From NCBI GenBank assembly GCA_024742415.1, contig JANSYN010000003.1, positions 301,048 to 365,047 of the forward strand: a stretch of 64,000 nt of DNA. Direction: 5' to 3'. Shown one piece after another: positions 34,874-64,000 of the stretch. The translations under genes and the position numbers were made by a program. The notes under the pieces were generated by a model. That model had not been told where the DNA came from, did not search any database, and saw only the letters and a program-made list of their open reading frames with translations. The stretch comes from Gammaproteobacteria bacterium. Its GTDB lineage: Bacteria; Pseudomonadota; Gammaproteobacteria; Pseudomonadales; Halieaceae. The number at the start of each line of letters is the position of its first letter. Position 1 is the first letter of the stretch.

Positions 34874-36130
34874 ATGGAACTTCGCAATACCATCGCCTAT
34901 GCCGAAGAGCAGGCCCTGCTCGACCCCTACGACCTTGCCCTGGAAGACATCGACGTTGCCAATCCCTTTCTGTTTGGCCGTGATGTGCATGGCAAGTGGT
35001 TCAAACGCCTGCGCGACGAGGCGCCCGTGCACTACTGTGCGGACAGCTTTTTCGGACCCTACTGGTCTGTGACCCGCTACGAACACATCATGCAGGTGGA
35101 CACCTCACACCAGATCTACTCGTCGGAACCGGCGATCACCATTCGCGACACCATGGACACCATGCCCCTGCCAATGTTTATCGCTATGGATCGTCCCAAG
35201 CATGACGAACAGCGCAAAGTCGTCAGCCCCGTAACGGGCGCAGAAAACCTGCGTCGTTTTGCGCCCATCATTCGCGAGCGCACCATCGATGTGCTGGACA
35301 GCCTGCCGCTTGGAGAGAGCTTTGACTGGGTAGACAGGGTCTCCATCGAGCTGACCACGCGCATGCTGGCCACGCTGTTTGACTTTCCCTTTGACGAACG
35401 ACGCAAACTGACCTACTGGTCGGACGTTGCGACTGCCATACCCGGCATGGGCCTGATTGAAACAGAACAGGAGCGCCAGGACGTCATGCTGCAGTGCCTG
35501 GCCTACTTTACCGAACTGTGGAATGAGCGCGTAAACACAACGCGCGGCGATGACCTTATTTCCATGCTGGCACACGGTGAGGCCACCAAAAACATGCCAC
35601 CGGAGGAGTACCTGGGCAATTTGATGCTATTGATCGTGGGCGGCAATGACACCACGCGCAGCACCATGACAGCCAGTGTCTACACCATGCACAACAACCC
35701 CGCGGAGTTTGCCAAACTCAAAGCAAATCATGAGTTGATTGACACCATGGTGGCAGAGACCATTCGCTGGCAAACGCCACTGGCCCACATGCGACGCACC
35801 GCCAAGGAAGACACCCAACTGGGTGACCAGTTCATCCGCAAGGGCGACAAAGTCATCATGTGGTATGTGTCTGGCAACCGTGACGAGCGCTTCTTCGACA
35901 ACCCGGATGATTTTATTATCGAGCGCGACAACGTGCGCAAGCATCTGTCATTCGGCTTTGGTATCCATCGCTGCATGGGCAACCGACTGGCTGAATTGCA
36001 ACTGCGGATATTATGGGAAGAGATACTCAAGCGCTTCGAACGCATTGAAGTCGTGCAGGAACCGGACCGTACCATCTCCTCCTTCGTACACGGCTACACC
36101 GGCATGCAGGTGAAGTTACATCCACTGTAG
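34874..36130 (+). CDS. Cytochrome P450, CYP153-like (alkane/fatty acid hydroxylase type)
   Basis: YLGNLMLLIVGGNDTTRSTM, LSFGFGIHRCMGNRLAELQLRILWEEILKRF; start MELRNTIAYAEEQ. Confidence 0.92.
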   Translation: MELRNTIAYAEEQALLDPYDLALEDIDVANPFLFGRDVHGKWFKRLRDEAPVHYCADSFFGPYWSVTRYEHIMQVDTSHQIYSSEPAITIRDTMDTMPLPMFIAMDRPKHDEQRKVVSPVTGAENLRRFAPIIRERTIDVLDSLPLGESFDWVDRVSIELTTRMLATLFDFPFDERRKLTYWSDVATAIPGMGLIETEQERQDVMLQCLAYFTELWNERVNTTRGDDLISMLAHGEATKNMPPEEYLGNLMLLIVGGNDTTRSTMTASVYTMHNNPAEFAKLKANHELIDTMVAETIRWQTPLAHMRRTAKEDTQLGDQFIRKGDKVIMWYVSGNRDERFFDNPDDFIIERDNVRKHLSFGFGIHRCMGNRLAELQLRILWEEILKRFERIEVVQEPDRTISSFVHGYTGMQVKLHPL

Positions 36131-36260
36131 TGCTGGCATGAGTGCTGGCATGAGTGCTGGAATGGGTGCTGGAATGGGTGCTGGAATGAGTGCTGGGATC
36201 AGTAGTGGTGTGAGTGCTGGCATCAGTGCCGGAATCAGTACCGGCATGAGTACCGAGCCC
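36129..36260 (+). repeat. 12-bp tandem repeat (consensus AGTGCTGGMATS), about 11 units
   Basis: Units 36129-36140, 36141-36152 and so on: agtgctggcatg agtgctggcatg agtgctggaatg ggtgctggaatg ...; starts inside the P450 stop codon. Confidence 0.95.
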
Positions 36261-61019: not shown

Positions 61020-61161
61020 GGGATTTCTCTTGTCTGGAACTGTGGCTGCAGTCTAGCGAATTGGCGGGGTTCATTGTAGCTCGACGGGTTGGGCTTGACG
61101 CTTGGTGCTGCGGTTTTGGGTTTTGGGTTTTGGGCGTGGGCGTGTATCTGTGTTGGGGCGT

Positions 61162-61257
61162 GGGGCGGTCTGGTGCGGTGGCCGAGGGTTGGGGCCGGGG
61201 CTTGGGGCGGTCTGGCGCGGTGGCCGAAGGTTGGGGCCGGGGCTTGGGGCGGTCTGG
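61162..61257. repeat. 42-bp G-rich tandem repeat (2.3 units) with G-quadruplex motifs
   Basis: Units 61162-61203 and 61204-61245, partial to 61257; contains GGGTTGGGGCCGGGGCTTGGGG. Confidence 0.9.
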
Positions 61258-61531
61258 AACACGGCCACCGCACCAGACTGATCGAGCAATCTTTCGACGG
61301 TTGTTTTGGCCATTACTGGCCAATAGGAGTGCCCTGTGGCTGACCGGCTGCCTGGTTGATGTACCCATCCCTGGAAAACGCTTCAGGCATTGCTGACAAC
61401 ACTCACAGTGACAGTCTCCGGGTTGACCAAATTGCGTAGCCCTGGAAAGAGCATGCGCGGGTGTAGAGTCCCTGGGCGTGCGAATATCTTGGCCGTCTGA
61501 GCGCGCCCAGGGACTCCACACCCGGGCATGC
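61254..61531 (+). repeat. Hairpin-rich dispersed element, copy 1 (5' hairpin truncated)
   Basis: Near-identical to 61634-61911 by direct reading; ends with long inverted repeat 61451-61531. Confidence 0.93.
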
Positions 61532-61594
61532 GACCCGAACAACAGCACTCGAAACCCGGTACGCGACCCCAACAACAGCACTTTTGTGATGCAC

Positions 61595-61647
61595 TGGCCG
61601 TGTTCCAGTGCTCGAAAGGCTAAGATACTCGCTCTGGAACACGGCCA
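61595..61647. repeat. Inverted repeat H2: TGGCCGTGTTCCAG-25 nt-CTGGAACACGGCCA
   Basis: 14/14 bp complementary arms, loop TGCTCGAAAGGCTAAGATACTCGCT. Confidence 0.95.
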
Positions 61648-61911
61648 CCGCACCAGACTGATCAAGCAATCTTTCGACGGTTGTTTTGGCCATTACTGGC
61701 CAATAGGAGTGTCCTGTGGCTGACCGGCTGCCTGGTTGATGTACCCATCCCTGGAAAACGCTTCAGGCATTGCTGACAACACTCACGGTGACAGTCTCCG
61801 GGTTGACCACATTGCGTAACCCTGGAAAGAGCATGCGCGGGTGTGGAGTCCCTGGGCGTGCGAATATCTTGGCCGTCTGAGCGCGCCCAGGGACTCCACA
61901 CCCGGGCATGC
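61634..61911 (+). repeat. Hairpin-rich dispersed element, copy 2 (direct, 380-bp period)
   Basis: Same sequence order as copy 1; ends with inverted repeat H1 61831-61911 (28-bp arms, 27/28 paired, 25-nt loop). Confidence 0.95.
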
Positions 61912-62104
61912 GACTCGAATAACAGCACTCAAAACCCCGCACGCGACCCCAACAACCCCAATCGCTCAACCGCACAAACCGAACGTGCTACCCAGGCAAT
62001 CACCAGCGTTCGGCCGCAGACCGGGCGGCGCTGGCCGGCGAGCCAGCAACAGCCGCCAAAAATTCGAATATACTGGCACTACACTGTCTTCGCTGGACCA
62101 GAAC

Positions 62105-62980
62105 ATGACAAGTCAGACCCACTCGAAATGGCCGTTCCGCTGGGACTTGCTGCTGCGCTACCGGTTTATTGAAACCATCGTATTGTGGGAAGGCCGGCTC
62201 ACCACAAGACACCTGTGCGACACCTTCGGCATCGGCCGGCAACAGGCCAGCAAGGATATCAATAACTACATAAAGGATGTGGCACCGCACAATCTTGAGT
62301 ATGACAAGTACCTTAAAGGCTACAAGCCTACGCCTGAATTCCAGCCACAGGTCACCCAGGGGCTGGCCGATGAGTATCTGCATCTCATGGCGCGCAACAA
62401 CGAGTTGATGAATGTCTTCGAATCACTATCGCTCAACGTTGCCAACGTAGAAGTGCTGTCGCTACCGGTACGCGACGTCAAGCCTGACGTACTACGACCC
62501 ATCATGCAGGCCGCACGGCAGCGCAAACGACTGGATGTGGACTACGTGTCAATCAACAACCCCGATCGGGAGGGACGGATAATCGTGCCGCACACGCTGG
62601 TCTATACCGGCTTGCGCTGGCATGTGCGCGCCTGGTGCGAAAAAAACCAGGAATACCGGGATTTTGTCCTGAGCCGCTTTCGCGATACGCCCGAAATCAT
62701 GGACGAATCGGAGCACGGTGTAGAGGGCGATGTTGAGTGGAACACGCAGGTGACGGTACGGATCACACCCGATCCCCGCCTGAATCCGGCACAGCGCGAG
62801 GTGGTCGAGGTGGATTATGGCATGATCAATGGCGCCCTGGAGATTCCTACCCGCGGCAAACTCGTTCCGTATGTGCTTAAACTATTGCATGTTGACCCGC
62901 GGGAGCCCGCAGGTGATGCCACTGCACAACAAATCGTCGTTCACAACCGCGATGAACTGCACTGCTGGTTGTTTGGTTAA
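62105..62980 (+). CDS. WYL domain transcriptional regulator (BrxR/CapW-like architecture)
   Basis: KWPFRWDLLLRYRFIETIVLWEGRLTTRHLCDTFGIGRQQASKDINNYI N-terminal HTH; VDYVSINNPDREGRIIVPHTLVYTGLRWHVRAWCEKNQEYRDFVLSR WYL region; about 291 aa. Confidence 0.88.
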   Translation: MTSQTHSKWPFRWDLLLRYRFIETIVLWEGRLTTRHLCDTFGIGRQQASKDINNYIKDVAPHNLEYDKYLKGYKPTPEFQPQVTQGLADEYLHLMARNNELMNVFESLSLNVANVEVLSLPVRDVKPDVLRPIMQAARQRKRLDVDYVSINNPDREGRIIVPHTLVYTGLRWHVRAWCEKNQEYRDFVLSRFRDTPEIMDESEHGVEGDVEWNTQVTVRITPDPRLNPAQREVVEVDYGMINGALEIPTRGKLVPYVLKLLHVDPREPAGDATAQQIVVHNRDELHCWLFG

Positions 62981-62996
62981 CCGCAAGGATTCTTCC

Positions 62997-63428
62997 ATGA
63001 GCAAAGACACCCCAACAGGCCCGCAAGAGCAGACGCTGTCGTCGGACGCAGCACCACCGGCAGTTGTAGAAGCACCCTCAAGGCCAGCCACAGAGTACGA
63101 GCGGGCCTACTCGGAAAGCAGTTTCTGGGCCAAATTGAAAAGCTATGCGCTGGCGGCTGGTCGAGAGGTTGTCGAGAAGGCGCTACTTCTGTACTTCGCT
63201 GCACAGGAAGAAAAGGCCCCGGCCTGGGCAAAGGCAACGATCATTGGCGCCCTGGGCTATTTTATCGCCCCACTCGACGCCATGGCCGACCTGACGCCCG
63301 GCATCGGTTATGTCGATGACCTCGGTGTACTGGCCCTGGCAATTGCCGCCGTGGCCACTTACATCAACGATGATGTTCGAGCAAAAACCCGCGAAAAACT
63401 CCAGGAATGGTTTGGGCCTGACGCATAA
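62997..63428 (+). CDS. DUF1232 (YkvA-like) domain protein
   Basis: AKATIIGALGYFIAPLDAMADLTPGIGYVDDLGVLALAIAAVATYI. Confidence 0.9.
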   Translation: MSKDTPTGPQEQTLSSDAAPPAVVEAPSRPATEYERAYSESSFWAKLKSYALAAGREVVEKALLLYFAAQEEKAPAWAKATIIGALGYFIAPLDAMADLTPGIGYVDDLGVLALAIAAVATYINDDVRAKTREKLQEWFGPDA

Positions 63429-63545
63429 GAGCATTGCATTGTTGCTTGTACCGACAGGCATCTGCCGGGCTCCATCGATGCTGGCGCTGCAGTGTTCTCG
63501 AGGTCGCATGCGGGGATGGTTTGGTCGCAAAAGCGCTGTTGTTGG

Positions 63546-63644
63546 GGTCGCGTGCGGGGTTTCGAGTGCTGTTGTTTGTGTCGCGTGCGGGGTTTTGAGC
63601 GTTGTTATTCGGGTCGCGTGCGGGGTTTTGAGTGCTGTTTTTTG
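63546..63644 (-). repeat. 33-bp tandem repeat array (3 units) attached to copy 3
   Basis: ggtcgcgtgcggggtttcgagtgctgttgtttg and two close variants, contiguous without spacers. Confidence 0.93.
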
Positions 63645-63648
63645 GGTC

Positions 63649-63965
63649 GCATGCCCGGGTGTGGAGTCCCTGGGCGCGCTCAGACGGCCAAGATATTCGC
63701 ACGCCCAGGGACTCCACACCCGCGCATGCTCGTTCCAGGGTTACGCCGCGCGGTCAACCCAGAGACTGTCACCGTGAGTGTTGTCAGCAATGCCTGAAGC
63801 GTTTTCCAGGGATGGGTACATCAACCAGGCACCCGGTCAGCCACAGGGCACTCCTACTGGCCAATAATGGCCAAAACAACCGTCGAAAGTCTGCTCGATC
63901 GGTCTGGTGCGGTGGCCGTGTTCCAGAGCGAGTATCTTAGCCTTTCGAGCACTGGAACACGGCCA
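63649..63965 (-). repeat. Hairpin-rich dispersed element, copy 3 (inverted), with both hairpins H1 and H2
   Basis: Reverse complement of copies 1/2: H1 63649-63729, H2 63913-63965. Confidence 0.95.
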
Positions 63966-64000
63966 GTGCATCACAAAAGTGCTGTTGTTGGGGTCGCGTA

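Follow-up and report, generated by a model that had tools for sequence, protein, structure and literature searches.

The 64,000-nt stretch of DNA analyzed here (the window, which forms the last 64 kb of contig C18 in G000, a genome of 4.14 Mb in 27 contigs) carries copies of a dispersed non-coding element that ends in long hairpins with a fixed tip and a stem of free sequence. The fold of one strand, the one that reads GA/GA at a mismatch near the tip and runs outward at each end (the GA strand), looks selected; RNA and single-stranded DNA (ssDNA) remain unseparated, in the absence of transcription or ssDNA data. We give about an even chance to the reading that these are REPIN-like non-autonomous elements, recognized or moved as the folded GA strand through a tip-reading protein, the partner being unknown and its binding inferred.

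The sequences quoted in a preliminary description of this DNA are all present in the window where it had placed them (Table 1). That description had proposed three copies with two hairpins each, H1 and H2. There are indeed three complete H1, but only two complete H2, the first unit having kept the right H2 arm alone. The loops of H1 and H2 are both 25 nt long and identical at 18 of the 25 positions, as had been noted, whereas the H2 arms of 14 bp given there are too short: they reach 25 nt each if 4 mismatches are allowed, which is the usual stem length of the hairpin family. A third, small palindrome had been reported in the body; it is present twice, but was not seen in the other sub-families and does not belong to the general element. 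Inverted repeats above the score threshold used number three in the 64-kb window, all of them H1 hairpins, and the loop pattern has 5 matches there against 0.00 expected (100 window shuffles). Many other contigs of this genome also terminate in element copies, as repeats break assemblies in this way. The genes of a WYL-domain protein and a DUF1232 protein (62105-63428) are flanked by inverted element copies.

Table 1. Coordinates of the element copies, their parts and the neighboring host genes in the window.
Feature	Position	Strand	Evidence or remark
Tandem array, ~2.5 x 42-bp unit with GTCTGGTGCGGTGGCCG (outer foot of H2 arm), reduced half-hairpins	61155..61257	+	TRF; inverted-repeat scan
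Element copy 1, left end truncated	61254..61531	+	
Copy 1, H2 right arm only	61254-61278		followed by body
Copy 1, complete H1	61451-61531		
Copy 1, GCTC loop of H1	61480-61502	-	
Small palindrome TTGGCCATTACTGGCCAA	61306..61323, again 61686-61703		body of window sub-family
Element copy 2, complete	61587..61911	+	architecture matched in other genomes
Copy 2, terminal hairpin H2	61587-61655		GCTC loop on + strand
H2 25-nt tip TGCTCGAAAGGCTAAGATACTCGCT	61609..61633	+	
Copy 2, terminal hairpin H1	61831-61911		GCTC loop on - strand
H1 25-nt tip CGCTCAGACGGCCAAGATATTCGCA	61859..61883	-	
WYL-domain protein gene	62105..62980	+	Pfam PF13280, E 2.6e-14; host gene between copies, outside element
DUF1232 protein gene	62997..63428	+	Pfam PF06803, E 1.1e-11; host gene between copies, outside element
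Tandem array, 3.6 x 33-bp unit beginning with H1 foot (GTCGCGTGC...), reduced half-hairpins	63535..63654	+	5' side of H1
Element copy 3, inverted	63649..63973	-	
Copy 3, H1	63649-63729		loop 63677-63701; followed by body
Copy 3, H2	63905-63973		loop 63927-63951

With up to 3 mismatches allowed, 51 occurrences of the loop were counted in the genome of the window (26 forward, 25 reverse), against 0 for the reversed control, and the search of host and relatives that had been suggested for it returned copies across the family. The exact pattern was also sought in 85,462 species, with the stem not part of the query. It matched only Halieaceae-type records (Halioglobus, Pseudohalioglobus, Haliea and two gammaproteobacterial bins), plus 6 stray matches without a stem; complete hairpins have pair scores of 14-29, stray matches of at most 7.2. 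Carriers amount to 15 of the 140 genomes of the family, 10 identified by a covariance model of the 23-nt tip and five more by one of the 19-nt tip, with copy numbers ranging from 1 to 37; they are mostly draft or metagenome-assembled genomes. Apart from family members, no hairpin was found in samples of 392 genomes of the order and 369 of the class. A viral, phage or plasmid origin was considered and rejected, for want of any match, viral contigs included. On the sequences available so far, the element appears restricted to Halieaceae-type bacteria, its carriers being some marine members of the family; the cultured strain Pseudohalioglobus sediminis NY5 is one of them.

About 30 unrelated sequence families of arms share one common tip. 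Watson-Crick pairing holds in ~95% of arm pairs and the stems are mostly 25-29 bp long: leaving out arms below 18, 25 of 29 independent arm families have an arm length of 25 to 29, with modes at 25 and 29. In 42 representatives, three or four types of Watson-Crick pair occur in most columns of the stem, with pairing kept. In a pair test on 40 sequences, 91.8% of the cells were paired, a fraction that shuffling lowered to 53% and sliding to 35-45%, and both sides had changed in 344 cells, against 97. Hairpins with a 19-nt tip (class B) behave in the same way as the 23-nt class (95.2% paired, control 60%). The later hairpin sets were picked partly by pairing and their paired fraction is therefore inflated, but the asymmetry between G.T and A.C mismatches described below cannot be created that way.

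The tip itself is structured. Its internal pairs 1-23, 2-22 and 5-19 covary, the last occurring as G-C, A-T and C-G, and between them sits the constant feature, a 2x2 mismatch, TC/TC when read on one strand and GA/GA (tandem G.A) when read on its complement. In the context 5'-pyrimidine-GA-purine-3', tandem sheared G.A pairs are highly stable, in DNA as in RNA. The TC/TC mismatch was demanded by the search pattern behind a set of 72 hairpins; it is also found in nearly all hairpins of the classes obtained first with a covariance model and later with a simple search for inverted repeats. The conserved loop with compensating stems had been interpreted at the outset as a selected nucleic-acid structure. 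This interpretation holds up: copies exist genome-wide and family-wide, pairing and covariation in the stems beat shuffled and slid controls, pairs inside the loop covary as well, the arms vary with the tip conserved, and the wobble is strand-asymmetric.

Indeed, read on the TC strand, the residual stem mismatches of the 72 distinct hairpins are 38 A.C and 8 G.T, or 36 against 8 when distinct events are counted (p=2.5e-5). Read on the GA strand, the ratio becomes 36:8 in favor of G.T, the tolerated wobble, and in the correspondingly oriented stems of a second motif, the core described below, the bias is 49 to 14. Strand-neutral mutation or repair would yield equal counts, from which we infer that the GA-strand fold is the feature being kept. 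An early count had given no strand preference for wobble, a result overturned by the larger set of hairpins. ViennaRNA energies scarcely differ between the two strands and leave the choice undecided. One-sided (wobble) changes are rare overall in the 40-sequence count; given this rarity and the mirrored changes in the best-aligned orthologous pair (see below), both arms seem, from sequence comparison, to be rewritten together.

Strand-biased wobble is also what a structured RNA would leave. Two outward transcripts, or the 3' ends of read-through mRNAs, would then need the GA hairpin, the core would be a second RNA domain and dispersal would be secondary. We think this unlikely, although it cannot be set aside lightly: G-U makes up less than 3% of stem pairs, which is low for RNA, and no T-run follows the hairpin feet. 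A known RNA family was tried and rejected, since Rfam gave nothing at gathering score except a tRNA, with only sub-threshold miRNA-type matches.

The two hairpins had been suggested to be the ends of the element, and terminal hairpins in opposite orientation do recur elsewhere. In genome G023, 11 elements of 566-793 bp start and finish with a hairpin, the two being oppositely oriented, and have unique flanks. The same layout is found in G014, G015, G016, G032, G083, G085 and G090 and in the window unit 61587-61911, while many hairpins of G015 were seen singly. No ORF and no gene lies within the elements examined; the missing gene, like the missing target-site duplication in G023, counts against the REPIN-like reading. 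Their dispersal, two inverted ends and insertion polymorphism would fit an ordinary MITE, likewise short and non-coding and mobilized by a double-stranded DNA transposase; template-switching correction would keep its arms perfect, in agreement with the mirrored arm changes between orthologues, and the tip would be conserved for transposase binding. Yet the terminal sequences that such an enzyme would read vary and are the least conserved part, the mismatches are strand-biased, and no target-site duplication was found in the 11 elements of G023. We consider a MITE improbable.

The larger elements include a conserved core of ~80-100 nt in two inverted copies, each borne on a stem of ~26-31 bp and variable sequence. 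The core covaries and has its G-U pairs in functional orientation, which speaks for a structured RNA; the center of the element, where outward promoters would have to lie, is unconserved in G023, which speaks against it. Without the hairpins, the core is present in ten genomes from four other families of the order, and not in the window's genome; in those families its stems are, in most inspected cases, 20-40 bp long and unrelated in sequence. In several families of the order the core (GAGGGAGTGGAGCGAGAC..GGCTCGCGACCGACCGAGGGCACCCCGGAGGGGC) often caps perfect stems of this length (loci L319-L331 in G410, G209, G329, G348, G496, G367, G264, G237, G480 and G169, and loci L262, L188 and L072). 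Its design is the same as that of the hairpins and it has no Rfam entry.

None of 65 clusters lies inside a gene. They occupy intergenic space, for the most part at the 3' ends of genes, a position that a structured RNA would also explain, and the flanking genes are convergent in 14 cases, tandem in 17 and divergent in 1, against a background of 46/132/59 (gene calls from a simple codon-usage script). Several G023 copies sit after intrinsic terminators, and an element of ~620-690 bp in G083 follows a terminator common to G080 and G081. The orthologous gap measures ~730 bp in G083, with the element, versus 75 bp and 124 bp in its congeners G079 and G027. G081 has kept a single core in this gap, and has a decayed hairpin at a different site.

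At several sites the same gene adjoins hairpins in different species, with different arms. Both neighbors are orthologous and the hairpins alignable at a single one (G001 and G014), where the tips are identical at 19 of 23 positions and, by an eye count, 8 stem pairs differ, all compensated (8/8). An alternative alignment with paired small indels is possible, and the changes would then be mirrored indels. Hairpins at orthologous positions imply that copies are retained for long periods, which would not be predicted if the element were purely selfish and mobile and which again suits a structured RNA; the chance expectation of such coincidences was not formally computed and insertion hot spots remain possible. 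The recurrence of one flanking gene with different arms across species, in several neighborhoods, and the fully compensated orthologous hairpin could also be explained by a DNA site used by the host, for a replication, repair or nucleoid protein, fixed near gene ends and not mobile. This is hard to reconcile with the patchy presence of the element, its widely differing copy numbers, its arrays and the congeners that hold one site without it, and only a slim chance can be given to it.

The recombinase or transposase that had been envisaged as a partner was not found: none of RAYT, reverse transcriptase and integron integrase (IntI) is distributed like the element. A RAYT as mobilizer was rejected in the absence of any correlation, PF01797 being absent from carriers G015 (28 copies) and G016 (8 copies), drafts that are 97-98% complete; none of the RAYT loci tested has the hairpins. 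A reverse transcriptase, in the sense of a retron, a DGR or a group II intron, was rejected with RVT_1 in 0 of 10 carriers. The integron integrase model TIGR02249 stays below cut-off in carriers G015, G032 and G093 and exceeds it in several non-carriers. No linked gene was found at the hairpins, whose neighbors are ordinary housekeeping and metabolic genes. Separately, the window's genome encodes one RAYT-like Y1 transposase (C11:119400-119735, L159), flanked by its own REP-like repeat AGGGGTCAGAGCCCT, which is unrelated to the hairpins, and an integron integrase above the NCBIfam cut-off at a contig end (C1:512-1450); integron integrases are common in its family. G042, of the same order, has 49 Y1 transposase matches, many of them fragments at contig ends, an IS200-like expansion.

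Among known systems, REPINs and BIMEs are extragenic, inverted palindrome doublets at gene ends (PMC3116915, PMC3733652). In REPs, the hairpin is read strand-specifically as folded ssDNA, a mismatch bulge being needed in E. coli (PMC8266576). The Halieaceae element resembles the REPIN/BIME systems with TnpA-REP: it is non-coding and extragenic, has two opposed palindromes, lies in convergent or tandem gene gaps, forms clusters and arrays, and meets the REPIN criterion of an extragenic inverted two-palindrome unit. However, it fails the defining tests of a REP. A REP is a palindrome of 20-40 bp with a family-conserved stem, whereas the stem here is free and has 25-29 nt per arm. Of the 29 five-prime flanks, 1 has the REP tag GTAG and 2 have CGTC; of the 29 three-prime flanks, none has GTAG and 3 have CGTC. 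A REPIN needs a cognate RAYT flanked by repeats, and two carriers have no RAYT. Integron attC sites are also folded ssDNA hairpins recognized by structure with much of their sequence variable, but in the Halieaceae element no R and L boxes were seen, the conserved part is the tip, and IntI above the family cut-off is lacking in G015. The terminal hairpins recall the ssDNA transposons IS200/IS605, with the difference that the ends are inverted and not on the same strand, and that G015 and G016 have no Y1 transposase. We found no earlier description of the element in the open-licence literature searched.

A free stem of kept length and pairing below a fixed tip is the signature of shape recognition on one folded strand. 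Under the REPIN-like reading, the outward-running GA strand at either end would fold into a long hairpin, and a protein would bind the tandem-G.A tip, reading tip and stem length and ignoring the stem sequence. Either that protein or an enzyme of the host would have moved the element as a folded strand, much in the way TnpA-REP handles the REP hairpin, and new copies would have been dropped behind terminators and the ends of genes. Both arms would then be rewritten at once, by fold-back copying or by repeated selection. Mirrored arm changes could arise by palindrome correction without selection; the strand bias would not follow from it. More tentatively, and with the balance somewhat against it, these hairpins may form a class of DNA of their own, mobile or used by the host, defined by a fixed tandem-G.A tip and stem length on a sequence-free stem rewritten in both arms. 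The protein serving it, as yet unknown, would then be related neither to RAYT nor to IntI or reverse transcriptase, and the second core would represent a sister design. REPs and other dispersed palindromes described so far hold their stem sequence constant within a family, and the Halieaceae hairpins do not. Shape recognition would mean that a simple pull-down could find the unknown partner, and orthologous hairpins with rewritten arms allow the upkeep of perfect long palindromes in bacteria to be tested in nature.

Two kinds of tandem repeat were seen along the way. Arrays of half-hairpins (foot, arm and sometimes half of the tip) lie on the TC-strand 5' side of hairpins in several genomes (the two window arrays of Table 1, and loci L084, L072, L109 and L081). 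A 12-bp unit (AGTGCTGGAATG) is repeated in ~10 tandem copies at window positions 36129-36251.
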